Positions 3,274 through 58,289 of a DNA stretch of 64,000 nt are shown here, in pieces. Within the stretch, counting starts at the first letter, position 1. The number at the start of each line of letters is the position of its first letter. This DNA comes from Thermoplasmata archaeon. GTDB lineage: Archaea > Thermoplasmatota > Thermoplasmata > Lutacidiplasmatales > UBA184. The stretch spans positions 44,318 through 108,317 of the forward strand of contig JAKIWQ010000001.1 in assembly GCA_022749935.1 (NCBI GenBank). The letters are read 5' to 3'. The translations under genes and the position numbers were made by a program. Under the pieces are notes generated by a model. The model had not been told where the DNA came from. It was given only the letters and a program-made list of their open reading frames with translations, and did not search any database.

Positions 3274-3836
3274 CGCAGTCCTTGTACTTCCGGTAAGAGG
3301 GTAGGTTCCTTGACTCTGGTCGGCGGGACACCGTTCCTCGTGAGGTCCCGGCGCACCGCGGCGTGCGATGGTCTCCACCTACGGAAGAAGAGTCGGGCCC
3401 TTCGGGTGTCCGCCCTTTAGCGGAGCCCGGGTGGACGGGCCCGATTCCAGTCGGGTCGGCTTAGAATCCCGGACTCCCTAGATCCCGCTACAGATCGAGG
3501 GATCGAGATCGAACTGCGAGGCGGGCATGGACCTCGCCGCACGGCTGGAGTTTCCCTGCCGCGAGCTGCCGCAGCAACTGCCGAATCGTCGGCTCCCTGG
3601 TCCGGGAAAAATAGGGTGCTTGCTCCGGGACCGGGAAGGTCTGTTCCGAGTCTCGCGTTAGGAGTTCCCCTTAGGATCGGTCCGCCTCGGCTCGCACCGC
3701 CTCTGCGCAGCGCCGTACCTCCTCGAGGGGCGCGGCCGGCTCGGCACGGGGCCCGATTTCGTCGGGCGCGACCACGCAATAACTGCAACGTCGGAACCTT
3801 ATTTGTAGGATAACTCGTTCCGGGGCCGAGGCAACC

Positions 3837-6850: not shown

Positions 6851-7714
6851 CTAGCTGACCGGGACTCCGGATCTTCCGGGGAGCAGACCCGTGTGCGAGG
6901 ACGCGTTCGTCCCGTGGGTCGCCGCCGAGAAGACCAACTCGTACGCGACCTGACCTCGTGGGTACTCCTTCGTTCGGACGCTGCTACGTTCTACCCGGAT
7001 CCCCGCCTCCCCGAGGCGATCGCGTTCCCGCTCAAACTTCTCACCGAGGTACACGTTCACGAGCGTCTGGTGGGCCTTGGCCCCGGCGACCATCCGGGTC
7101 GCCCCGACGATCGGACTCCCCACTAGGGTGAGGTTGCCGCCCACGAGGACGAGCTCGCAAGGACCCGAATCAGCCCCGAGCGAGAGGCCCACGCCCACCG
7201 GGAAGTTGCGGGAGTTGCGTCGGAGGTTGGCGATCAGACTTTCCGCGGCGGGCAGCACCGACCGGCAGAACTCCGGCACTTCTCCGAGGTCGGGGTGGTC
7301 GGCTTCCGGTCGGACCCAGTACGCCACGAACCCGTCCCCCGTGAACCGGTCGAACCATCCTCCGCTATCGTTGGCGAGGCTCCTCACCGCCTCGGTAAAG
7401 CCGATGATGAACCGAGCGTAGAGGGACGTTTGGACCGCCTCCTTCAGTACCATCGCCGACATCCGGAGGTCCCCGACGACCACGTCGGCCTCCACCGGCG
7501 TGGAACCGCCGGTCAGGATGTTCGTGACCGCCACCTCGCCCAGCCGAACCCGGGCGTCGACGGGACCGTGCCGGGAAAGGACGGAGTCGAGCTCGGTTGC
7601 AGGTCCGGATTCACCCTCCCGGCTCATCCACTCAGGTGACCCTCTGGGTCCCGTTAAGGTACGTTCATGCGAACCCGGTCCGGCGAAGTACGTCGGTGAG
7701 AGGGAGGATTCCAT
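6851..7714 (-). CDS. Class III nucleotidyl cyclase-like protein
   Basis: VVVGDLRMSAMVLKEAV (first metal Asp), FTGDGFVAYW (second metal Asp), VGVGLSLGADSGPCELVLVGGNLTLVGSPIVGATRMVAGAKAHQTLVN. Confidence 0.68.
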   Translation of the reverse strand: MESSLSPTYFAGPGSHERTLTGPRGSPEWMSREGESGPATELDSVLSRHGPVDARVRLGEVAVTNILTGGSTPVEADVVVGDLRMSAMVLKEAVQTSLYARFIIGFTEAVRSLANDSGGWFDRFTGDGFVAYWVRPEADHPDLGEVPEFCRSVLPAAESLIANLRRNSRNFPVGVGLSLGADSGPCELVLVGGNLTLVGSPIVGATRMVAGAKAHQTLVNVYLGEKFERERDRLGEAGIRVERSSVRTKEYPRGQVAYELVFSAATHGTNASSHTGLLPGRSGVPVS

Positions 7715-7725
7715 TCCCCGTCGAC

Positions 7726-8271
7726 TTAGTTCCCACGCGAGCGCTTGGGGGGACGGACCGGGCGTCCCCGAGACGACCGTCTTGGTCCGGCACTGTTCGT
7801 CCGGGTCTTTCGGGAGAGGGTCCGGGGTTGTCGCGGAACCGGGAACAACGTCGGCAGGCTGCCCGGGCTAGAAGGACCGCAGGAACACAGCCCGATCCCG
7901 TCGGGGTCCTCCACGAAGAGGAGCTGGGCCGGACCGTCCACGAACCCCACCTTCGACTTGGCCCCGGCCCGGATCACGGATCGTAGCCACCGCCGGGGAT
8001 CGGAAACATAGAACCCAAAGTGGTCGAATTCCGTGCCCGGACGGAACCGTTCGTAAAACGCGGTCCCGGGCGGGTAGTAGTTGAGCTCGATACGATGGGG
8101 CGAGCCCGGGAAGACCAGATGGACCCACCTTCCCCCGTGGGAGAACCCCCCTCGCTTCACGACCCGGAATCCGAGACGACGGTAGAACCGGACCGAACGC
8201 TCGAGGTTCCGGACCCGAATGCCGGAGTACATGAACCGGACTTCGTACGACATCGAGGGGGGAGGGGGCAC
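7726..8271 (-). CDS. VOC/glyoxalase superfamily protein
   Basis: RFMYSGIRVRNLERSVRFYRRLGFRVV ... GTEFDHFGFYVSDP ... LLFVEDPDGIGLCSCGP. Confidence 0.85.
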   Translation of the reverse strand: MPPPPSMSYEVRFMYSGIRVRNLERSVRFYRRLGFRVVKRGGFSHGGRWVHLVFPGSPHRIELNYYPPGTAFYERFRPGTEFDHFGFYVSDPRRWLRSVIRAGAKSKVGFVDGPAQLLFVEDPDGIGLCSCGPSSPGSLPTLFPVPRQPRTLSRKTRTNSAGPRRSSRGRPVRPPKRSRGN

Positions 8272-8640
8272 CCCCGTTCATAGCTCTTGTACGGTGGATC
8301 CTGACGACCGAAGTCGATTCCTCGGGACGGCCCCCCGTCGCGCCGCCGCGAGGACCACGGCCCCGGGCCTTGGATTCGGTCGAAGGACGGTTCTTAATCC
8401 CTCATGATCGAGCCGATGATGTTAGACCGGAGTGAGTGCGAGCACGCGGGGAGTGCGACCTACTCACCAGGCTGATCGGATTGAATCGACCCGTTCGTTA
8501 AGAACTGCTGAAGGTATCAGTTCGCCCGAGGAGCAGGTACGGGGGGAGCGTCGCCCGTTCGGGCTCAGCTGGACGGCTGGTGGCCGAGAAATGCGGTCGT
8601 CCTGAAGACCCTGTTCCGTGTACTGTTCGGATTCATCTGG

Positions 8641-9087
8641 GTGATCGACGGGTCCCTCAAGTTCGCCCCCGGGTTTGTGGATGCCTTCAGCGGCAAGGTC
8701 TCGGGGGCCGGTCAGCCGGCGTGGCTCCAGGGTTGGTTTGCCTTCTGGAGCACGCAAGTGAACGGCAATCCCGCGTTCTGGGTCTACCTTACCGGATCGC
8801 TCGAACTCGCCCTCGGTCTGGCGCTGGTATTCGGCTTCATGCGGAAGGCCGCCTACGCCGGCGGTGCCCTCCTGAGCCTCTTCATCTGGGCCGTTCCCGA
8901 GGGTTTTGGGGGTCCGTACGGGCCAGGGTCGACGGACATCGGGACGGGCGCGATGTATGCCTTGCTCTTTCTCGCGCTCATCCTCATCAACGCTACCTAC
9001 GGACCCAGCCGTTGGAGCCTCGACTATCTGATCGAACGTCGGTTCCCTGCGTGGGCTCGCATCGCGGAATTCGTTCCCCGTACCTAA
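8641..9087 (+). CDS. DoxX family membrane protein (true start probably upstream)
   Basis: Hydrophobic DoxX-like TM pattern; in-frame TM1 sequence (VVLKTLFRVLFGFIW) continues upstream of the first GTG. Confidence 0.75.
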   Translation: MIDGSLKFAPGFVDAFSGKVSGAGQPAWLQGWFAFWSTQVNGNPAFWVYLTGSLELALGLALVFGFMRKAAYAGGALLSLFIWAVPEGFGGPYGPGSTDIGTGAMYALLFLALILINATYGPSRWSLDYLIERRFPAWARIAEFVPRT

Positions 9088-9234
9088 ATCGTGGAACCCG
9101 GGTAGGTCGTCCGTGGCGGTGGCGTACGCCCGGGCCACCCACTCGGTCGCGGCGGAGAACGCTCGACAGGGTTCGGTGCGCTCGGCGGAGACTCACGCCC
9201 GTCCCGGGAAGGGAGCCATCGCGGCCCGTCCGAC

Positions 9235-9241
9235 TTTATAT
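9235..9241 (+). promoter_or_regulatory. TATA-like box upstream of HTH_10 regulator
   Basis: TTTATAT in a noncoding stretch about 90 nt upstream of the ORF start. Confidence 0.35.
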
Positions 9242-9329
9242 CTGAACAAGCGGTCCACCGATGTCGCCGTCCGACCCGCACTGAACGACGGGGCCCGGAA
9301 ACGGCGGGAGGAGTTCCGCGTCCGAACGA

Positions 9330-10085
9330 GTGCCCCGACGGGCGGAGCGTCCGGTCGCTCCTCCGGCGGCGGAACGGTCCACGCGCGCCCGTCTCGAACG
9401 GTTGCGAACCTCCTCCGACGAACCCCGTGAGGACCGTCTCTTCCTCGCGACGCTTCGAATCCGTATCCCGAGAGACATCTGGACGGGCCCCTTTTCCTCG
9501 GCCCACCCTCACATCCGGCTTGAAGCGTTGAACCGGACCGACGTCACTCCGGGGCTCTCCGTCTCGGACTACTGGATCAGCGGTTCGCCTCCGGGAGTCT
9601 GGGCCCACGAGATCGGGGAGTTCCCGGATGTCGTGAAGGCGGAGAGCCTCGCCGAGGTCGGTGACGGATGTCTCTATCGTATCACGTACAAGAATCCCCC
9701 CATCATCTACCTCTACCGCAAGCTGCGACTTCCCCTCCAGTTCCCGCTCCGGCTCCAGGCGGGGTACATCGCCTGGGAGATCGTGGCCCGATACAGTGAG
9801 TTCCAGGAGATCATGGAGCACGCCAAGATGGCCGACCCGGCCGTGTCCATCGTGTCGATCCGTCGCCGCCCGCTTCGGAGCCACCTTCCGCTCCTCACGG
9901 ATGCCCAGCACCATCTGTTGGACCAGGCGATGGCCGCCGGCTATTTTGCGGTCCCCCGGGGGATCACCCTGACCGCGCTGGCCCGGAAGCTGGGACGGAG
10001 CAAATCGGGTCTTTCCGAGACCATCGCCCTCATCGAGAAGAAGCTGTTCGAGACGGCCCTTCGCCCGGACATGGCCCTCGCCTAG
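9330..10085 (+). CDS. HTH_10 (bacterio-opsin activator-like) transcriptional regulator
   Basis: C-terminal LLTDAQHHLLDQAMAAGYFAVPRGITLTALARKLGRSKSGLSETIALIEKKL. Confidence 0.82.
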   Translation: MPRRAERPVAPPAAERSTRARLERLRTSSDEPREDRLFLATLRIRIPRDIWTGPFSSAHPHIRLEALNRTDVTPGLSVSDYWISGSPPGVWAHEIGEFPDVVKAESLAEVGDGCLYRITYKNPPIIYLYRKLRLPLQFPLRLQAGYIAWEIVARYSEFQEIMEHAKMADPAVSIVSIRRRPLRSHLPLLTDAQHHLLDQAMAAGYFAVPRGITLTALARKLGRSKSGLSETIALIEKKLFETALRPDMALA

Positions 10086-10118
10086 CCGCCAACCCCCCCG
10101 GAAACCCCGGGCGCCCGA

Positions 10119-10150
10119 CCGAACCCGTTCGGTGGGCCGAACGAGTTCGG
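10119..10150. promoter_or_regulatory. Tandem perfect dyads CCGAACccGTTCGG-tggg-CCGAACgaGTTCGG
   Basis: Two 14-bp dyads with 6-bp arms (10119-10132 and 10137-10150), 18 bp centre to centre, between the HTH_10 gene and the next ORF. Confidence 0.5.
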
Positions 10151-10207
10151 CCTCGCCTCATCCCCTGAACGGCGGTAGAAGGTTTCGGAGCAGACCCGGC
10201 ATCGCAG

Positions 10208-10939
10208 ATGGGCGCCGTGAACACGTGCGGGGGGGTTCCGCCCCCGGTCGGCTCGATCTTGATCTCGGGGGTCGGCGAACGGTCGATCTCGATCCTCGTG
10301 GCCGCTCTCGCCCGGAGGGACCCGTACCCGTTCGGGTGGGCCGATTGTTCGCGGGCCGGCCAGGTGTGGGACGCCGTAGCGCAGCGGCTTCTCGCGGAGG
10401 GATCGGACCGGAGCCGAGAAGTCCCCATGGACCTGGACGAACTCCGTCCACCGCCGTCCCCCGAGGAGGCGCTCTCGCGACTCGTCGCGCCCGACCCCGC
10501 GCCCACCCCCCTAGAGTCCCGGCTCGCGGCCTTCCTTCGTCTCCCCGTGCTCTTCCAACGGCTGGCGTCGCGCACCGCAACCCCGAGCGGGAGGTCGGCG
10601 ATCGTCCTCACGAACGTGGACTCGCTTCCTGCGAACCTCATGGAAGCCGCCCTGGGGCCGCTCGAAATCCACGAGACGCTCCACGCGGAGGGAGTGACCC
10701 TCCTCGTCACATTCCGCGGAACGCCCCCCAGTCGGCTCGAGGGAGTGTTCGACCAAGGGTACCGCGTCGAAGCTCCCGTCGGCTCCGACTGGCAGGAGGC
10801 CCGTGTGGCCCGCGCCCGCGGGAATCCCGCCGACGGGTTACCCCCGAGCGGCCTGTTACGGGAGTGGCTCCCGTCGCTGGGGCTCACCGAACTGCACCTC
10901 GACCGATTGGGCGACTCGCCGGGTCCCCGTCCCCGTTAG
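10208..10939 (+). CDS. Hypothetical protein
   Basis: 243-aa ATG-initiated ORF between two well-supported genes; no recognised motif. Confidence 0.6.
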   Translation: MGAVNTCGGVPPPVGSILISGVGERSISILVAALARRDPYPFGWADCSRAGQVWDAVAQRLLAEGSDRSREVPMDLDELRPPPSPEEALSRLVAPDPAPTPLESRLAAFLRLPVLFQRLASRTATPSGRSAIVLTNVDSLPANLMEAALGPLEIHETLHAEGVTLLVTFRGTPPSRLEGVFDQGYRVEAPVGSDWQEARVARARGNPADGLPPSGLLREWLPSLGLTELHLDRLGDSPGPRPR

Positions 10940-11032
10940 GCTTCTCCCCGACCGGAGCCGGCTCCGCCCAGAGGAGACGTCGGCCCATCGCTCGCGCATC
11001 AAGTTGAATACCCCCCTTCAGTTCGGCCCGGC

Positions 11033-13543
11033 GTGAAGGTCCGGGAGTACGCCCTGGACCTCGAGGTCGAATCCGCCACAGGGGTGTTCCGGGGCGACCT
11101 GACCCTGAGTGGCTCCGACCTCCGGGGATTGGTCGAGCTCGACTCCGAGGACCTGGACGTCAGCTCGGCCAGTGTCGACGGAACCCCCGTCCCCTTCTCG
11201 GTTGATCCGACCCGCCAAAAGCTCATCGTGGACGCGGGGGACCGGGACGGCTCTCAACTCCGAGTGTTCTACACCGGGGCGGCCTCGCGCAAGAGCCTGT
11301 CCGGATTGTACTTCTCCTCCTCGGGCGAATTCCCCGTGCTGACCACTATGATGGAGCCGATCTCATGCCGTCGCCTGTTGCCGTGTCTCGACGTACCGGA
11401 TGCGAAGGCCGTTTTTCGGCTGAGCGTCACGACCGAAGTCGGGCTGACGGTGATCTCGAACGCCGACCTGGTCGGTGCCGAGCCCTCCGGGGGCCGACAG
11501 AAGTGGACGTTCGCTCGGACACCGCCGATGGCGACCTACCTGCTCTACCTGGGCATCGGGCCGTTCGAAACGATGGAGTGCGTCCACGACGGGGTTCGGA
11601 TCATCGCCGCCACCCTACCGGGCAAGGTAGCGCGTACGCGGGGCCTGCTGGAATCCGCGGGCCCGCTGCTTCAGGCCTACGGAGAGTACTACGGCCAGCG
11701 GTACCCCCTCTCGAAGTTGCACCTGGTCGGGGTCCCGGACCTGTGGGCCGGCGCGATGGAGAACTGGGGCGCGATCGCGTTTCCCGAGCTCGGGCTCCTC
11801 GTGGACGCGGCGACCAGTCCCGCGATCCGACGCTGGGCGATGGAGACGCTCGCGCACGAGATTGCGCACCAGTGGTTTGGAAACCTCGTGACCATGCGGT
11901 CGTTCAACGACCTCTGGTTGAACGAGAGTTTCGCGACGTTCGTGGCCGCGAAGATGGAGGCGCGACTCGGCATGCGGACGGATGCGTGGAGCGAGTTTCT
12001 CGTACGGATCAGCCCGGCCTACTTTGGAGATTCGCTCGCGAGCACGCATCCCATCCAGATGGACATTACCGACCCCAAGACCATCGCCGAAAGCACCGAT
12101 GAGATCACCTACTTCAAGGGTGCCAGCGTCGTCCGGATGATCGAGGCCTACCTCGGCGAGGACGTCTTCCGCCGAGGTGTAGCCGCCTACCTCGAGCGAT
12201 ACCAGTACGGGAATGCCCGGGGCGACGACCTGTGGGCGATCCTGGAATCGGTCTCGGGCGAACCCGTGACGGAGGTACTCCGTGCCTGGGTGGAGCGACC
12301 CGGGTTCCCGGTCGTACGGGCGAGTCTTCGAGGGGCTGCGCTGCAGCTGGAGCAATCGCGGTTCCGGTTCGGACCCGCCCGGCCCGAGGAGCCCCCCTGG
12401 CCCATTCCCCTGACGCTGACGGTAGGAGGTGTGACGCAGCGGCTGGTGCTCGGCTCCCACAAGACGGAGCTCCCGTACGATGGGTCGGCTAAGCTGCGCA
12501 TCAACCCCGGGCGCTCCGCGTTTGTCCGGGTCTGGTTCGCCTCCGAGCTCCGGGCGGGAATCCTGCGGGACCTTCCGACGATGGACGGGGCGGAGCGATG
12601 GGCCATCCTCAATGACGGGTGGGCGTTTCTCCTGTCCGGCGACTCGAGTCTCCCGGAAGTCCTCGAGCTGGTGCATGCCGCTCGGGCGTGTTCGGACTAT
12701 CCGAGCGTGTGGGAGCTGGCGCACTCCCTCGCCGCACTCGAGATGATCGCCGGGGAGGACGCCGCCTTCCGGGAGGCCGCCCTGACCTTTTACCGAACCC
12801 AGTTGGACCGCCTCACCCTCGACGAGCGTCCCGGCGAACCCGACACGGACCCGGTGCTCCGGGAACAATTGGCCCTGAACTTGGCCCGGCTCGATGAGGG
12901 ATTTGCCGAGGAGCTCGCCCATCGGTTCGACACGATCGATCGACTCGCAGCAGCCCTCCGGCCCGCGGTCGTGTACGCGTTCGCTCGGACGCGAGGGGAG
13001 GGGGCCTACGCCCCTCTCCTCGCACGGGCGCGCTCGACCGCCGATGAGGACGGGGCGTTGCAGAGCGGCGAAGCCCTCGGCGGCATGCCCACGGAGGAGC
13101 TGCTCGTGCGCGCGCTCGAGGCCTCCCTCGAACCGGGCATGCGGGCCACCGTGACCTACGAGATTATCACCGGTGTCGCACGAAATCGACGAGGCGGAAG
13201 CCTCGCCTGGGCCTGGTTGAAGAAAAACCTCCGGGAGATGGAGGACCGTGCGAGGGGGAGTTGGGCGCTCGCCCGCTTGCTCGAGCGAACGATTCCCCTC
13301 GTCGGGCTCGGACGGAGGGAGGAGGTGGAGCGCTACTTTGCCTCCGAAAGCTTCCCCGAGGCGGCGAACGGGATTCGAAAGTCGCTCGAAGTGCTCTCCC
13401 TCGAAACGCGTCTTGCTTCCCGGATCCTGACGGCGGGTCGGGCCCCCGCCATCGGAGCGGCCACGGAGCCCGGGGCCCCCCGCCCCGTCCTCGCGGCCGG
13501 TGTACGGGCCGGTGGACGCTTGGATCGGCGACCTAGCGGTTGA
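11033..13543 (+). CDS. M1 family aminopeptidase (tricorn interacting factor F2/F3-like)
   Basis: GAMENWG exopeptidase motif and HEIAHQWFGNLV zinc site; 836 aa. Confidence 0.95.
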   Translation: MKVREYALDLEVESATGVFRGDLTLSGSDLRGLVELDSEDLDVSSASVDGTPVPFSVDPTRQKLIVDAGDRDGSQLRVFYTGAASRKSLSGLYFSSSGEFPVLTTMMEPISCRRLLPCLDVPDAKAVFRLSVTTEVGLTVISNADLVGAEPSGGRQKWTFARTPPMATYLLYLGIGPFETMECVHDGVRIIAATLPGKVARTRGLLESAGPLLQAYGEYYGQRYPLSKLHLVGVPDLWAGAMENWGAIAFPELGLLVDAATSPAIRRWAMETLAHEIAHQWFGNLVTMRSFNDLWLNESFATFVAAKMEARLGMRTDAWSEFLVRISPAYFGDSLASTHPIQMDITDPKTIAESTDEITYFKGASVVRMIEAYLGEDVFRRGVAAYLERYQYGNARGDDLWAILESVSGEPVTEVLRAWVERPGFPVVRASLRGAALQLEQSRFRFGPARPEEPPWPIPLTLTVGGVTQRLVLGSHKTELPYDGSAKLRINPGRSAFVRVWFASELRAGILRDLPTMDGAERWAILNDGWAFLLSGDSSLPEVLELVHAARACSDYPSVWELAHSLAALEMIAGEDAAFREAALTFYRTQLDRLTLDERPGEPDTDPVLREQLALNLARLDEGFAEELAHRFDTIDRLAAALRPAVVYAFARTRGEGAYAPLLARARSTADEDGALQSGEALGGMPTEELLVRALEASLEPGMRATVTYEIITGVARNRRGGSLAWAWLKKNLREMEDRARGSWALARLLERTIPLVGLGRREEVERYFASESFPEAANGIRKSLEVLSLETRLASRILTAGRAPAIGAATEPGAPRPVLAAGVRAGGRLDRRPSG

Positions 13544-13722
13544 ACTCAGAGCCGAGCGAGTCGAGAGTGAGGCGCCCGCCGCGCCTCCGGCCCAGATGGT
13601 CGAGCCACGCACGGCCTCGGCGGGGTGTGGCCCGATCCGCCCCCTCGACGGGCTCAACGCCTATGTAGGCCAGTCTAGTGGACCGCCGAGTTCGTGCGGG
13701 CCGTCGCACGGGAGAGGTCAGG

Positions 13723-21833: not shown

Positions 21834-23435
21834 ATGGGCATTAAGTGTCTCCGGTCGGTGGCGCCCGAGGGGGTTTTCTTGGTCAAGTTCGACGTGGCCA
21901 TCGTGGGCGGGGGTCACAACGCGCTCGTCCATGCGGGATACCTCGCCAAAGCTGGCGCGCGGGTGGTCGTCCTCGAGCGGCGACCGATCCTGGGAGGCGC
22001 CTGCGTCACCGAAGAACCGTGGCCCGGATACCGGATCAACACCTACGCCTACGTCGCCGGCCTCCTTCGCCCCAATATCGCGGAAGAGCTCGAGCTGTCC
22101 AAGTTCGGGTATTCGCCCATCCTGTACGACCCACAGGCGTTCTGCCCCTTCCCGGACGGTCGTTCTCTCTCGCTGTGGAACGACACCGACAAGACCGTGA
22201 AGGAGATCGCCAAGTTCTCCAAGAAGGACGCGGCCGCCTACCCCAAGTACGAGGAGTTCTGGGACAACGTCCTCGACCTAGTGGAACCCCTCATGCTGGC
22301 CCCTCCGGTCCCGCTGGCGGACCTGGTCTCCCAGTTCCCCGGGGCCGAGGCGGAGGAGCTGGTCCGAAGCCTTTTCCTCCTGAGTGCCCAGGATTTTCTG
22401 GACGAGTGGTTCGAGAGCGACCACGTCAAGGTCGCCTTCGCGACCAACGCGGTCATCGGGGAGATGGCCGGTCCACGGACGCCCGGGACGGCCTACGTCC
22501 TCGCCCACCACAACATCGGAGTCCTCGAAGGTTCGCGGAAGGTGTGGGGATTCTCCAAGGGCGGCATGGGCCGGATCACCGAGGCGATGGCCAAGTCGGC
22601 GCAACACCACGGGGCGGTCTTGCGTACCGGAGTCACCGTCAAGGAAATCCTGGTGCACGGCGGGCGTGCCGTCGGGGTCGAACTCGAAGGAGGAGAGCGG
22701 ATCGAGGCCCGGGCGGTCTCGTCGTCGGTGGACGCGAAGCAGACCTTCCTGCATCTCGTCCCACGCGAGCACCTCTCGAGCGACGTGGTTCGGGAGGTCG
22801 AACGGATCAAGAGCCGGGGTGCGGCGCTCAAGTTCAACGCCGCCCTGAGCGGTCTTCCCAAGTTCACGGTCGCCCCCGAAACCCCGGGCCCTCACCATCG
22901 GGGAGCCATCGAGCTCTGCCCCTCCATGGAGTACCTCGAAAAGGCGTACGACGACGGCAAGTATGGTCGCTTCTCCGAGCATCCGTTCATCGACTGCGAA
23001 CTCCAGAGCGTTCTCGACCCGTCCATGGCGCCGCCGGGGCGGCACGTGATGACCTGCTTCGTCCAGTACGCCCCCTACGAGCTCCGTGGGACGACGTGGG
23101 ACGAGTTCAAACCGAAAGCCGCCGAGCGGATCCTCGACACGTACGCCGAGTACGCGCCCAACATCCGGGACGTGGTCGAACACTGGCAGGTCATCTCCCC
23201 CCTCGACATCGAGCGGACGCTCGGTCTCACGGGGGGGAACATCTTCCAGGGGGACATCACGCCCGACCAGATCTTCTCCTTCCGCCCGATACTGGGCTGG
23301 TCGGGCTACCGGACCCCCGTCACGGGACTCTACCTCTGTGGCTCTGCGGCGCACCCGGGCGGAGGCGTAACCGGTGCCCCGGGACACAATGCGGCCCAGG
23401 TGGTCCTCGAGGACCTCCCCACCCTTCCCGCGTAG
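21834..23435 (+). CDS. FAD-dependent oxidoreductase, phytoene desaturase/PYROXD2-like (paralog A)
   Basis: FDVAIVGGGHNALVHAGYLAKAGARVVVLERRPILGGACVTEE; C-terminal GLYLCGSAAHPGGGVTGAPGHNAA. Confidence 0.9.
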   Translation: MGIKCLRSVAPEGVFLVKFDVAIVGGGHNALVHAGYLAKAGARVVVLERRPILGGACVTEEPWPGYRINTYAYVAGLLRPNIAEELELSKFGYSPILYDPQAFCPFPDGRSLSLWNDTDKTVKEIAKFSKKDAAAYPKYEEFWDNVLDLVEPLMLAPPVPLADLVSQFPGAEAEELVRSLFLLSAQDFLDEWFESDHVKVAFATNAVIGEMAGPRTPGTAYVLAHHNIGVLEGSRKVWGFSKGGMGRITEAMAKSAQHHGAVLRTGVTVKEILVHGGRAVGVELEGGERIEARAVSSSVDAKQTFLHLVPREHLSSDVVREVERIKSRGAALKFNAALSGLPKFTVAPETPGPHHRGAIELCPSMEYLEKAYDDGKYGRFSEHPFIDCELQSVLDPSMAPPGRHVMTCFVQYAPYELRGTTWDEFKPKAAERILDTYAEYAPNIRDVVEHWQVISPLDIERTLGLTGGNIFQGDITPDQIFSFRPILGWSGYRTPVTGLYLCGSAAHPGGGVTGAPGHNAAQVVLEDLPTLPA

Positions 23436-52656: not shown

Positions 52657-52729
52657 GGGCTCGTGGTCCAGCGGTTACGACGTCGCTCTCACACAGCGAA
52701 GACCGCCGGTTCGAATCCGGCCGAGCCCA
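52657..52729 (+). tRNA. tRNA-Val (anticodon CAC)
   Basis: Acceptor GGGCTCG/CGAGCCC, A73, anticodon stem TCGCT/AGCGA with loop CTCACAC, T-arm GCCGG-TTCGAAT-CCGGC; upstream CCTTAAAC. Confidence 0.95.
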
Positions 52730-52773
52730 TCTTCGGGTCGGGGGCATCCGGGTCTTGGTGAGGGGGATGCCCC
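52726..52773. repeat. Repeat copy 1 (modules A then B) at the tRNA-Val 3' end
   Basis: A = CCCATCTTCGGGTCGGGGGCAT (52726-52747), B = TCCGGGTCTTGGTGAGGGGGATGCCCC (52747-52773); contains hairpin GGGGCATCC...GGATGCCCC. Confidence 0.8.
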
Positions 52774-52905
52774 GCGATCCCTTAGCGGCGCCCGTGGTAA
52801 CCTATTCCGCGAGCCTCTCACAAAAGGTGGGTTTCCGGAGGACGCGTCGACCTCCACGTGGCCCATCGGGCTAATCGCGGTCCGGTCATCGGTCGGGCGC
52901 GTCCC

Positions 52906-53367
52906 TCATTCTCGGCGCAAGGAAAGATACGCCCACAAGCTCGATGCGATCACGAGGAATCCCAGGGTGGCATAGATGACCGTGACCACGATCGGAAGTC
53001 CTCCCCCGACCTCCAACTGGGGTTGAGTGTTCACGATCAGCCGAAGTCCCACCCCCAGTGCACCAAGGATAGCGGCCCCGGCGAAGCTCCATCGCCGGCC
53101 TCGGCTCTCGAAGTACAGGAGGAGCAGGGTCAGGGCGATGATCGGACTCACCTGGGACTCAGCGATCAGTCGAACGGCGGGCGCCACTGAAGACAAAGTG
53201 ATGGCCAGGGCGACAACGATGGCGACAAGGAACGGGAGAAGCAGTGTAATCGCAACGCGCTGTGTTACGAGGGCGTTTCTGCTGAGGCGAGGTTCCGTCG
53301 CGTTTGATTCCGGGAGGTCGCGGAATCTCCCCTCGTCCGCGCTCATCGCGGTCCCGTCATCGGACAC
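52906..53367 (-). CDS. Hypothetical 4-TM membrane protein
   Basis: 153 aa with four hydrophobic segments (VAITLLLPFLVAIVVALAITL; PIIALTLLLLYF; GAAILGALGVGLRLIV; VIYATLGFLVIASSLWAYLSL). Confidence 0.6.
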   Translation of the reverse strand: MSDDGTAMSADEGRFRDLPESNATEPRLSRNALVTQRVAITLLLPFLVAIVVALAITLSSVAPAVRLIAESQVSPIIALTLLLLYFESRGRRWSFAGAAILGALGVGLRLIVNTQPQLEVGGGLPIVVTVIYATLGFLVIASSLWAYLSLRRE

Positions 53368-53460
53368 GCGCTTTCCCCATCAAGCCGGCGGTGGCCCGCT
53401 CGTACTTCGCGTCCGGAAAGGGGTCGGTTGCGTAACAAGACCGGGGCGGATCTCACAGCG

Positions 53461-53787
53461 TTAGGCGAGCTTCATGTGTTCCAACAGTGCTTCGAATCTC
53501 GAGTCCTGGCGAACGAGTGCGAGCCTCGGGCTGAGGCGGAAGTTGGCCAGATTGACAGAATGACGCTCGACCCCGATTTCCAACCATCGGAAACAACCAT
53601 CGAGGTCGCCGAGCTCGGCGTGGATCCGAGCCAGCTGCCATATGAACCATGGCGCCACGGGAGGGGCCTCGATGCGTTCCAAGATGGCGCGAGATTGTTC
53701 CCTTTCCCCGGCGAGTGCGTGCACGTAGGCCTGGGAAACCGGCCCGTCGCCGGGATCCTGGTTGAACTCCCGGCTGCCGCGTGCCAA
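53461..53787 (-). pseudogene. C-terminal TPR-like fragment
   Basis: QAYVHALAGEREQSRAILERIEAPPVAPWFIWQLARIHAELGDLDGCFRWLEIGVERHSVNLANFRLSPRLALVRQDSRFEALLEHMKL resembles the last repeats of a larger TPR protein; frame is open upstream without a good start. Confidence 0.5.
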
Positions 53788-53906
53788 GCGACCGCAGGTC
53801 GTCAGCGGCAGGGTTTGGAATGGGCACTCTGTGTGACAGGGGCCCGACCCCCCGTGAGCTCGAAGTTAAGCGGCTCGCCAGCCTCGGTAGGCGAAGGGAG
53901 TGTTCG

Positions 53907-54548
53907 ATGGGTTCATCTCCACCGCGAGGGAACACCCGTGACATTACGAATCTACCACCCGAAGAATACGTTCATCACATTGGCCAAAGGTATGTCGTCG
54001 GGGACACGCCGTGGGACTCGGGGAAACCCAATGCCGAACTGATTCGCCAGATCGAAGCCGGGAACCTCCCCGGCAAGACGGTCCTCGAGATGGGATGCGG
54101 TACCGGTACGAACGCCGTCGAGCTCGCCCGACGCGGGTATCGCGTGACCGCAGTCGACCTCACGCCGCTTGCGATAGAACGGGCTCGAGAGAAGGCGACG
54201 AAAGCCGGTGCGTCAATCAACTTCCGGGCGGGTGACCTCACCCGCCTGGATCTGGGAGGACCGTACGATTGTCTGCTCGATATCGGTCTGTATCACGGAA
54301 TCCGTAACCGCGACCTGGAAGGGTTCCAATCCACGCTCCAACGGGTTTCCCGGCCCGGCACGCGCTGGCTGTCCTTGGCCGGGAACCCCAAGGAGATTTC
54401 CCCGGAGGGTCCTCCGGTAGTCCGCGAGGAGGAGATTCGCTCCGAGCTGGGCCCGTTGTTCAAGATCCTTGAGCTTCACGAGATCCGGTTCGATCTCCGT
54501 CCGGACTTCCAGCCTCTCGCTTGGTCGATTCTGATGGAACGCCGCTGA
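53907..54548 (+). CDS. SAM-dependent methyltransferase
   Basis: GKTVLEMGCGTGTNAVELARRGYRVTAVDLTPLAIERAREKATKAGASINFRAGDLTRLDLGGPYDCLLDIGLYHGI. Confidence 0.88.
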   Translation: MGSSPPRGNTRDITNLPPEEYVHHIGQRYVVGDTPWDSGKPNAELIRQIEAGNLPGKTVLEMGCGTGTNAVELARRGYRVTAVDLTPLAIERAREKATKAGASINFRAGDLTRLDLGGPYDCLLDIGLYHGIRNRDLEGFQSTLQRVSRPGTRWLSLAGNPKEISPEGPPVVREEEIRSELGPLFKILELHEIRFDLRPDFQPLAWSILMERR

Positions 54549-54567
54549 GGGTAGGGAGAGCCTCAGC
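54544..54567 (+). terminator. Hairpin overlapping the methyltransferase stop codon
   Basis: GCTGAGG-gtagggagag-CCTCAGC. Confidence 0.35.
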
Positions 54568-55207
54568 AGGGTACGTGTCATCGGTGGACCGTCGGCGACG
54601 CGAGGACTGCACGCTCCTGCTCGACCCAAGATGCACGGATGCCTGACGCTGACGGTGTGCGCACAATTGCCATTGAACCGACACCGTGGCATCCGTAGAC
54701 AAGGCGTGGGATTCCTGCCGGGGAACCACCGACCCAGCGTCGGCGCTGGAGGGGATTCGTGCGTTCTAAGAAATCCCGCATGGGGATCCGCCGGTGACCC
54801 GTGTCGGGCGATCGCTGCGTCGACCCGGACCCGTTCGAGCTGCGCGAGAAGGAACTAGAAGACCGATTGGGCTCGAACTGTAGAACGTTGCTTATCCACC
54901 ACCGAAGGTCGCAAACAAGGACGAAAGTAGGTAACGGATACTGGCTTTCGCCAGACGGCGGCGAGAAGAGACCGACTGCAGTAGCACCTTCCTCCGCGAC
55001 TCCCTCTGCAGCTCCTGTCGGCCGTCGACACCAATATTGGCAATTTCGGTGTGGTCGGGCACGCACCTAAGGTCGCGAAAGGAGCCGCCCGCACGTTGGG
55101 TCTGCGGTGTCCTGCGTCGGCCGGGCTGGGCTGTTCGGTTAGGTTCGGTTGACGGGGGATCGTCCAACCGCCCCCACCGAGCGCCATCGAGATCGAGCCG
55201 AACCAAG

Positions 55208-55262
55208 GGGGCGTCCGGGTCTTGGTGAGGGGGATGCCCCCCCATCTTCGGGTCGGGGGCAT
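55208..55262. repeat. Repeat copy 2 (modules B then A)
   Basis: B perfect at 55214-55240 (27 bp) followed directly by A perfect at 55241-55262 (22 bp); order reversed relative to copy 1. Confidence 0.8.
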
Positions 55263-55692
55263 TCCCTGTCACCCGAACCCACGTAGGGGAGGGCCACGGG
55301 GGGAGAAACCTCGGACCGAACCCTCGTGGCTGCCCAGTTCCCGCGGGAACTGAAGCCGCAGATCAACGGGCTGGGCCATTCGGATACACCGTGCGGGGCG
55401 GCGAACTTCTTCGTCGAGCACCTCGGGTGCGAGGTCGACCGAAGGAGTTCGAGCGGGTCCCCAGCGGTCTCGCATCGCGGTCGAGGGGGTCGGGGCTCCG
55501 GCGTATTTCGTGATGTCCAGGGGTTCGCCCGAAGGGCGCCGCACCCTCGGCCCCTCGCGTCCGATAGCGGACAACCGGCCCCCACGTTCGAAATCGGCGA
55601 TCGTCACCTGGCAGCGCCGCCCGAGAGGGAGAGGGCGACCCCTCCCGGGGTCGGTCCCCCCTGGCTCCGAGCCGGACCCCCCGTGTCGCTCG

Positions 55693-56448
55693 TCAGGACA
55701 CGGTAATCGAAGAGAGGACGGCGTGCTTGCCGGAAGTGCTCATGTTGATCGAGCCGCTCGCCGACGACCCGCCCGTCGACACCGAGGTATCGACCAACGA
55801 GATCAGCTCGGTCACCACATAGTAGGTGTGACCCGCGGTGAACGTGCCGTTGACGAAGGCTTCCATCCTCAACGAAGTGAACGTCTTCATGAGGCTCCCG
55901 CTCGAAACGGAGTTGCCCTGAGAGGAATGGAACGATGAGGACAAGTAGGAACTGCTGGTCTGATCGTACACGTACGTGTAGATGTACACCTCGGATTCCG
56001 CGTACGCGAACTGGGGGTAGGGACCCGGCGTGGCCACCAAGTCGACAAAGAACGTCACGCTCCATTTCTCCTTGACCGAATGGTGCCCGCTCGCGACGCT
56101 GAAGGTAGAGCTGGACAGCCCGACGAAGGAGACGGCCTCCGTCGTCGCACTCACGCTCCCACAAGACACCTGCGTGGCCTTGGTATTGGTGACGGCGTGA
56201 CCGTTCACGAGGTTAAAGCTCGGTGAGGTGCTCCACGACGCGTTTCCTCCGCACCCGGTGAAACCGGCGCTGATCGATTGGTCCGCCGTTCCTCCGTACG
56301 GCGCCGTCAGTGTGAGGGCCGGGTGCGCCGAAGCGGCCGGGGCGAGGACCATCAGTAGTGCCAGACCCACCGTCATCACGCTTCCGAACCCGACCGTTCG
56401 TCCCTTGGTCCGCAGAAATGGCGTCTGTTCTCCGACGTTCCTCTTCAT
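55693..56448 (-). CDS. Secreted/surface hypothetical protein with signal peptide
   Basis: MKRNVGEQTPFLRTKGRTVGFGSVMTVGLALLMVLAPAASAHPALT..., Ser/Thr/Tyr-rich mature part. Confidence 0.7.
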   Translation of the reverse strand: MKRNVGEQTPFLRTKGRTVGFGSVMTVGLALLMVLAPAASAHPALTLTAPYGGTADQSISAGFTGCGGNASWSTSPSFNLVNGHAVTNTKATQVSCGSVSATTEAVSFVGLSSSTFSVASGHHSVKEKWSVTFFVDLVATPGPYPQFAYAESEVYIYTYVYDQTSSSYLSSSFHSSQGNSVSSGSLMKTFTSLRMEAFVNGTFTAGHTYYVVTELISLVDTSVSTGGSSASGSINMSTSGKHAVLSSITVS

Positions 56449-56591
56449 TCGTCCCACGTCCCCGTTCCCGCCGGAGGCAGGACCCCCTGCTCGCCGACGT
56501 GCGCGGAAGTCCGGGTAGGACTCTCCGGTACTTAGACCTCGGTAGTCCCTAGGGGACGCCACCCTTCGGGGGGCCTCCACGTCGGGGGGAG

Positions 56592-56999
56592 ATGTCGGAC
56601 GCGCCGCGGCGAGCGCCTCCTCCATCCCCGCCGGGAAGGGTAGACGGGAAGTGTGTACGAGCCTCCGGGCGTCAGGGTATCCTCGTGGAGCACCCACGAA
56701 TCGTAGTTGGGACGCCTCGCGAGTACGCGTACTGGATCGCGCGGCTCCGCAGGTTCCTGGCGGAACGGGGTGCGAGTGCGGACGACCTGGAGCAACTCGA
56801 CGCCCGCATCAACTACAAGGGGAATCGGATCACGCTCTACCGACTGAGCAATCCCGCTGAGGACGGGTCGGTCGCCGAAACGATCTCGCATGAGGTCCTC
56901 CACGCCCTCTTCTACCAGATGGGCGAGTACCGGGCCGCCCGAGAGATCGACCTGGTCGCCAAGCCGGCGCGGAGTACCGAGAGAATCGGCGGGATCTGA
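56592..56999 (+). CDS. Small HEXXH-containing putative metalloprotease-like protein
   Basis: ETISHEVLHALFYQMGEYRAAREID in a 135-aa ORF; start uncertain. Confidence 0.6.
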   Translation: MSDAPRRAPPPSPPGRVDGKCVRASGRQGILVEHPRIVVGTPREYAYWIARLRRFLAERGASADDLEQLDARINYKGNRITLYRLSNPAEDGSVAETISHEVLHALFYQMGEYRAAREIDLVAKPARSTERIGGI

Positions 57000-57038
57000 C
57001 CCTCGCCCGGTCGGGACCGAGGGATTCGGCCCCGGGAC

Positions 57039-58289
57039 TCAACCGGGGGTCTCCAGGTGGCGCCTGGACTCGTCACGGGGAAGGGCGTCTCGCAACCGCG
57101 CGCTCGAGAAACCGAGGCCGCTGCCCGTATTGTAGAGCAGGACGGTCTCCCCCGGCCGAAGGAGCCGGTGCCGCGTCAAGCTCTCCAGCGCGGCGTAGGG
57201 AGCCGCCCCCTCGGGGGAAGCCGAGATTCCATGTCGCTGGGCTAGCCGGTCCATGGCGTCGAGGAGCGAGGAGTCCGACACGGTGTCCCCCGATCCACCG
57301 CTGCCCCGGACCGCCTCGAGGACCCGCTCTGAGGCGAACGGAGCGGGGACGAGCAGGCCCGGGGCGACCGTCGTAGGGTCCTCCCATGGACGGACCGCCG
57401 CGGCCCCGTCGCGCAACGCCCGGACGACCGGCGCGCAACCTTCCGCCTGGATGGCATAGAGCCTTGGAATCCGTTCGAGGAGCCCGAGCTCACGGAGTTC
57501 CGTGAAGGCCTTGTACATCCCCACGAGGCCCGTGCCCCCACCGGTGGGGTAGACGATCGCGTCGGGAAGCTCGGCCCCGGGGGACTGCTCGAAGATCTCG
57601 AACCCCATGGTCTTCTTTCCTTCCACACGGTATGGCTCGCGGAGGGTCGACATGTCGAACGAGGGGAGGGTTTTTTCCGCGGTCCGGGCCGCGGCGCCGG
57701 CTTCCCGGATGGTCCCCGCGACCCCCACGACCTCGGCCCCGTAGGCTCGACACGCCTCCCGTATCGATTCGGAGGTTTTCGTCGGAAGATACACGCGCAC
57801 CCGAACGCCTGCACGGGCCCCGTACGCGGCGAGGGCGACCCCCGCGTTGCCTGCGCTGGGGACGAACAACTGGTGCAGGCCGAGCTCGCGCGCCCGCCCG
57901 ACGGCGACCGACATCCCGCGGGCCTTGAACGAGCCGGTGGGGAGCAGCCCGTCGTCCTTCAAGACGACGCGAACCCCCGGAGCCTCCGGGACGTCCGAGA
58001 GGGGGAGTACCGGGGTGAATCCCTCCCCGAGCGTCACGATCGACTCCTGGCGCTGGATCGGAAGCAGTTCCCGGTACCGCCAAAGACTCGGCGTACGGCT
58101 CGAGAGCCCCGCCTTCCAAGAGCGCGCGTCCAGTTTGGATAGGGCGTAGACGGCGAGTAACGCGTGACCGCAGGTCGGACAAACTCCCGCGGGTCGGTGA
58201 GGGTCCACTTCCGTGCAGCAGGCACGACACTCCAGCGACTGCAGAAGGGAACCGGTCTCCGTCACGGTCGGGTCTCGGGAAGTGGACAC
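57039..58289 (-). CDS. thrC: Threonine synthase
   Basis: SIVTLGEGFTPVLPLSDV, DDGLLPTGSFKARGMSVAVGRARELG, PSAGNAGVALAAYGARAG, VYPTGGGTGLVGMYKAF; N-terminal C-x2-C...C-x2-C. Confidence 0.9.
   Translation of the reverse strand: MSTSRDPTVTETGSLLQSLECRACCTEVDPHRPAGVCPTCGHALLAVYALSKLDARSWKAGLSSRTPSLWRYRELLPIQRQESIVTLGEGFTPVLPLSDVPEAPGVRVVLKDDGLLPTGSFKARGMSVAVGRARELGLHQLFVPSAGNAGVALAAYGARAGVRVRVYLPTKTSESIREACRAYGAEVVGVAGTIREAGAAARTAEKTLPSFDMSTLREPYRVEGKKTMGFEIFEQSPGAELPDAIVYPTGGGTGLVGMYKAFTELRELGLLERIPRLYAIQAEGCAPVVRALRDGAAAVRPWEDPTTVAPGLLVPAPFASERVLEAVRGSGGSGDTVSDSSLLDAMDRLAQRHGISASPEGAAPYAALESLTRHRLLRPGETVLLYNTGSGLGFSSARLRDALPRDESRRHLETPG

Follow-up and report, generated by a model that had tools for sequence, protein, structure and literature searches.

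A 2.5-kb segment behind an intact tRNA gene

The analyzed window is a 64,000-nt stretch of contig JAKIWQ010000001.1 from a soil Thermoplasmata archaeon of the same genus as Ca. Lutacidiplasma silvani and Thermoplasmata archaeon JOPF123. In it, an intact tRNA-Val(CAC) gene is followed by a 2.5-kb segment delimited by repeated sequences (Table 1). Its gene content was roughly as proposed in a first-pass annotation made from the sequence alone, which had listed a membrane protein, a TPR fragment, a methyltransferase and about 0.65 kb lacking a convincing open reading frame (ORF): the methyltransferase is intact and the last stretch holds no recognizable gene, while the TPR fragment scores just under the curated cut-off and the 153-aa ORF has no family match. 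Homologues of the methyltransferase with 59–71% identity occur in five congeners, the closest ones being free of internal stops. In a partial check of those homologues, one lies ~1.3 kb behind tRNA-Cys in G032, with no recognizable terminal inverted repeat (TIR).

Table 1 Features of the tRNA-Val locus and the adjoining elements.
Feature	Coordinates	Strand	Evidence or remark
tRNA-Val(CAC), intact, insertion target	52657..52729	+	ARAGORN and Rfam
T-loop motif TCGAATC, 8 nt ahead of target duplication	52711..52717	+	Sequence; corresponds to leader motif TCAAATC of the A. boonei casposase
Target-site duplication, tRNA-side copy, CCCATCTTCGGGTCG, 15 bp	52726..52740	+	15/15 identical to 55241-55255
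Left TIR, 33-bp near-palindrome, flipped orientation	52741..52773	+	Versus right TIR 21/33 as is, 32/33 re-inverted
153-aa ORF, putative membrane protein, cargo	52906..53367	-	ORF list; no Pfam or NCBIfam match
TPR-like fragment, probably 3′ end of a broken gene	53461..53787	-	Pfam TPR_4, E 7e-6, slightly below cut-off; L123 and L044 match in part
SAM-dependent methyltransferase, intact, cargo	53907..54548	+	Pfam Methyltransf_25, E 8e-18
Region without recognizable gene (~0.66 kb)	54549..55207	.	No cas1 or polB trace
Right TIR, 33 bp, inward reading GGGGCATCCCCCTCACCAAGACCCGGACGCCCC	55208..55240	-	23 of first 24 bases agree with G024 casposon TIR
Target-site duplication, distal copy, CCCATCTTCGGGTCG	55241..55255	+	Sequence
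Left TIR of second element, second TIR type, GGGGCATTCCCTGTCACCCGAACCC	55256..55280	+	Same type behind tRNA genes in G007, G016, G061, G074

Two repeats mark the segment. Repeat A (CCCATCTTCGGGTCGGGGGCAT), a perfect 22-mer, occurs at 52726-52747 and 55241-55262, and repeat B, a perfect 27-mer, at 52747-52773 and 55214-55240, embedded in a 40-nt match of 93%; each B copy is part of a 33-bp near-palindrome. Both are exact, as initially annotated, and follow the order A-B at the tRNA end and B-A 2.5 kb later. Because the tRNA ends at 52729, A opens with its final four bases, CCCA, in agreement with the earlier placement of its start within the tRNA. In 20 dinucleotide-shuffled versions of the complete window, exact direct repeats reached at most 15–18 bp, which places the 22-bp and 27-bp repeats beyond chance. 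In the assembled genome (1.79 Mb, 97 contigs, 95% complete), A and the 24-bp core of B occur in these two copies only, with up to three mismatches allowed, ruling out a dispersed intergenic family, and a looser TIR pattern remained at chance level (16 hits versus 11 for the reversed control). Viral contigs gave no TIR match. The window holds two more pairs of exact direct repeats (≥22 bp), at 23014/31716 and 23346/32048; the copies are 8702 bp apart in both pairs, which suggests duplicated genes.

A complete casposon and reduced relatives in the genus

We read the tRNA-Val locus in 28 congeners. The DNA behind the tRNA varies widely between genomes, and in some of them it opens with a variant of B in reverse complement, GGGGYATCCCCCTCACCAAGACCC. 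In Thermoplasmata archaeon JOPF123 (G024, JASHSI010000056.1), a sequence of this type lies directly behind the same tRNA gene as in the window and recurs in inverted orientation 15 kb away, each copy being bordered by CCCACTCTCGCCCGG. The enclosed DNA encodes a casposase Cas1, PolB, an HNH nuclease, a type I restriction–modification (R–M) system (HsdM/HsdS) and queuosine-type genes. The closest solved structure to this Cas1 (Pfam E 4e-43) is the Methanosarcina mazei casposase 6OPM (E 3e-48, with the alignment running through its C-terminal part), compared to 3e-21 for the best CRISPR Cas1. The G024 element is a complete family-2-like casposon. Its TIR matches that of the window at 23 of 24 terminal positions, and its duplication has the same length (15 bp) and place. 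The comparison with relatives that the first-pass annotation had suggested thus uncovered casposon ends at the same tRNA; for the window, we infer insertion from the duplication. Repeats at non-tRNA positions, named there as a refuting outcome, did not occur among the relatives, in which they sit at tRNA 3′ ends.

Shorter elements carry remnants of the casposon core. Ca. L. silvani (G061) contains a 3.3-kb element between the same TIRs with a perfect 15/15 duplication and a 181-aa C-terminal cas1 fragment that is 75% identical to the G024 casposase; reading outward from tRNA-Val, the duplication is followed by this element, an identical duplication, a second element and a third TIR. In G079, a 3.0-kb element at tRNA-Pro is flanked by a 12/15 duplication and carries a polB fragment 66% identical to G024 PolB. 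A polB fragment also lies ~1.6 kb behind the TIR at tRNA-Val(TAC) in G074. The G061 and G079 elements are intermediates that link the short elements to casposons. Both resemble the window element in size (3.0–3.3 kb), TIR type, 15-bp duplication, lack of an intact cas1 and presence of cargo, and G061 shares the tandem arrangement, but they differ in their retained cas1 or polB fragment and in the nature of the cargo. In G061 (L112, 8120-10516), the cargo is a 798-aa PKD-like secreted protein, and in G079 (L113, 2292-3567) a two-gene cassette, AbiEi/AbiEii-like by eye and without NCBIfam match.

These relatives also bear on a conventional DDE insertion sequence or miniature element (MITE) that landed behind the tRNA by chance. 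TIRs and small size would suit such an element, but the relatives examined hold cas1 or polB between ends of this kind and no DDE transposase, and we regard this origin as extremely improbable. DDE elements also do not usually produce 15-bp duplications whose place is the same in each of five different tRNA genes.

Ends of the element and the flipped left TIR

With the casposon of G024 as reference, the repeats resolve into other units. Repeat A consists of a 15-bp target-site duplication plus 7 bp of TIR, these last bases being the first of whichever left TIR comes after each A copy, and repeat B belongs to the TIR. The element is thus bounded by 33-bp TIRs that agree at 32 of 33 positions with the left one re-inverted and that match those of G024. 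The duplication, identical at 15 of 15 positions, overlaps the tRNA 3′ end; its length presumes a four-G TIR start as in G024 and the window, as adjacent G/C runs also permit 13 or 11 bp. Casposon ends surround DNA without a casposase, as in a non-autonomous derivative. The first-pass annotation had read the repeats as fitting att-like direct repeats, an assignment that does not survive the finding of such ends on a casposase-encoding element in a congener.

Inversion of the palindromic left TIR at its own position accounts for the seemingly permuted A-B...B-A order and leaves the terminal GGGGCATCC unaltered. The interior would have been flipped after insertion, probably by template switching or recombination at the 9-bp inverted arms. 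A left end made of two element ends fused by deletion was also considered; it is disfavored since other TIRs of the same type are natural palindromes and no target duplication follows position 52773 (GCGATCCCTTAGCGG versus CCCATCTTCGGGTCG, only 7/15). Like the right TIR of the window element, the TIRs in G079 and G072 are near-palindromes.

Both B copies can fold into hairpins, as would fit REP-like repeats flanking the tRNA on its 3′ side, or repeats with a role in transcription. DNA folding was, however, not clearly better than for shuffled sequences (z −1.0 and −1.5), the genome holds only two copies and the motif is missing behind tRNA-Val in most congeners. For an assembly artefact, the flipped left-TIR junction would have to be accounted for; as it is unique sequence, a simple repeat-driven misassembly probably does not explain it. 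We give such hairpin or artefact explanations next to no weight.

A fixed integration spacing at several tRNA genes

Ten junctions in eight genomes share one layout, consisting of TC(G/A)AAT(C/T), 8 nt, CC, 13 further nt (a 15-nt spacing) and a G-rich (GGGG-type) TIR start. The tRNAs concerned are of five kinds: Val(CAC), Val(GAC), Val(TAC), Pro(GGG) and Gln(TTG). The duplicated sequence (the 13 nt after CC) varies between junctions, while the spacing stays fixed. A pattern search based on this ruler gave seven matches across six genomes, and the reversed control gave zero; some two-mismatch hits may stem from another element family or chance.

This layout parallels published casposase specificity. 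For the Aciduliprofundum boonei casposase, the leader TCAAATC 8 bp upstream, a CC border and a 14–15-bp duplication have been described, along with a palindromic TIR of which only about five terminal bases are needed (PMC6614799). In M. mazei, the duplication includes the final 4 bp of the tRNA (PMC6977970). The window follows both sets of rules, with TCGAATC, 8 nt and CC and thus one base changed in the leader motif.

An element integrated by a tyrosine recombinase, either a satellite or a decayed provirus or plasmid with A as attL/attR, had to be weighed against this picture. Such elements favor tRNA 3′ ends, and A is a direct repeat that begins in the tRNA. The repeat, however, holds only four tRNA nucleotides, so that crossover would not rebuild the tRNA. 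TIRs, absent from att elements, are present, and the same ends flank the cas1-carrying casposon in G024. The repeat length is constant at 15 while its sequence differs between tRNA genes. Furthermore, neither the ORFs nor the family matches of the segment include an integrase, in line with the earlier annotation, and an att repeat restoring the 3′ part of the tRNA is likewise missing. We rejected the att-site assignment because TIRs are present and the spacing holds at 15 bp from one tRNA gene to the next, and a recombinase origin appears very unlikely.

A probable casposon derivative lacking a casposase

A Pfam PF01867 search with working controls and tblastn revealed no casposase (Cas1-solo) in the window element or elsewhere in its genome (G000). 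No family B DNA polymerase gene was detected in the element or assembly, a weaker negative that comes from a single-query search without working controls. Concerning decayed cas1 or polB, tblastn gave no significant hit in 54549-55207 or behind 55256; tblastx hits consisted of scattered short pieces pooled by sum statistics and were discounted.

Taken together, we assign a probability of about 0.9 to the 2.5-kb segment being a casposon-type element without its own casposase at the tRNA-Val end, as read from its ends, duplication and relatives. Because a casposase of its own, a defining feature of casposons (Krupovic et al. 2014), was sought and not found, we file it as a casposon derivative and not as a casposon. 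It is most likely a non-autonomous or decayed derivative, which bears out the initial suggestion that an integrated element, satellite or decayed, occupies the 3′ end of the tRNA. Family 2 casposons, that is, AciBoo-C1 of A. boonei at tRNA-Pro and the M. mazei casposons at tRNA-Leu, share several features with it: they lie at the 3′ end of a tRNA whose final nucleotides fall inside a 14–15-bp duplication, have the CC border with a T-loop leader 8 bp upstream (A. boonei), and insert in tandem; a C-rich TIR 3′ end and a palindromic TIR, both known from casposons, are further common features. In contrast to these ~6–16-kb elements, the window element measures 2.5 kb, lacks cas1, polB and HNH genes and has a flipped left TIR. 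It likewise differs from the G024 casposon, which at 15 kb is complete with Cas1, PolB, HNH, R–M and queuosine-type genes.

Within this assignment, the element could be a pure fossil, that is, a complete casposon that inserted, lost its core by internal deletion and never moved without its own casposase. This is a sub-case and not an exclusive alternative, and we consider the odds on it to be about even. The TPR fragment and the 0.65-kb geneless stretch suggest decay, the left TIR is flipped, and G061 and G079 demonstrate casposons cut down to fragments. Against a fossil stand, though not decisively, the still perfect 15/15 duplication, the intact methyltransferase and the lack of any cas1 or polB trace; moreover, about five terminal TIR bases suffice by the known rules, and both window ends keep them.

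A second element in tandem

A different TIR begins at 55256, directly after the second target duplication, which supports the tandem arrangement considered in the first-pass annotation. By their sequence, two elements stand in tandem behind tRNA-Val, the second putatively the older one. Tandem casposons are known from Methanosarcina and Thaumarchaeota. A pattern search for the second TIR type matched seven genomes, with one hit for the reversed control. In five of the seven (the window, G007, G016, G061 and G074), the match lies behind a tRNA gene or in tandem there; those in G001 and G025 look like chance. No right end of the second element was found within the window, which ends with the contig. 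Downstream of the second TIR, the stretch up to the threonine synthase gene (55281-57040) is not shared with the closest relative, G035, and contains an SprT-like gene present in only 12 of 78 congeners. This DNA could be accessory, or could belong to the cargo of that element.

Proposed integration route and significance

The observed layout suggests the following route. A family-2-like Cas1 integrase would have read the tRNA T-loop as a leader and attacked the DNA at the CC of the acceptor-stem end, using the TIR 3′ end (...GCCCC). The other strand would have been cut 15 bp away, and repair would have duplicated those 15 bp. As the tRNA is left intact, more elements could insert beside it, with the newest insertion presumably adjoining the tRNA, much like the latest spacer in a CRISPR array. 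The element may have been moved by a casposase in trans or may have shed its cas1/polB core after insertion. Excision would be expected to yield the tRNA followed by one CCCATCTTCGGGTCG and GGGGCATTCCC. CRISPR arrays built by Cas1–Cas2 plausibly resemble this arrangement in their leader-proximal insertion and in the fixed-length repeat duplicated by a Cas1 integrase. The inserts in the window differ in being transposon units with TIRs, and no CRISPR array or cas genes occur here. More tentatively, and at less than even odds, casposons in Ca. Lutacidiplasma and relatives might sustain a class of small elements without Cas1. These would be mobilized in trans, bring cargo genes along and pile up at several tRNA genes in CRISPR-like order, with the youngest copy adjoining the tRNA ‘leader’.

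Casposons are proposed ancestors of CRISPR adaptation, and few have been characterized. Here, a single genus combines an entire casposon with shortened derivatives and with elements stacked in tandem behind several of its tRNA genes. This set makes the 15-bp casposase ruler and the leader rule legible from genomes and supplies natural minimal substrates. In the open literature searched, we found neither natural cas1-less casposon derivatives nor a casposon report for Lutacidiplasmatales, which is a weak hint of novelty, and the paper describing Lutacidiplasmatales makes no mention of casposons or mobile elements.

Additional elements were encountered in the genus. A contig of G007 (L116, C141) encodes at ~7300-13700 a 1125-aa PolB, an HNH-like protein and a 398-aa Cas1 that is ~40% identical to the G024 casposase; this locus is a second casposon type in the genus. 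In G015 (L033, ~3650-3720), tRNA-Val(CAC) is followed by an insert of ~46 bp, hardly more than two facing TIRs, and then by a sequence resembling the target duplication at 11 of 15 positions, together constituting a near-empty mini-element. Lastly, an unrelated third palindromic end of the GGGTAGTACCAATTCGCCGAAACTTGCACTACCC type lies ~13–15 nt behind the CCC of tRNA-Val(CAC) in four genomes (L025 in G001, L042 in G025, L045 in G029 and L127 in G070) and perhaps belongs to another casposon family with the same target.
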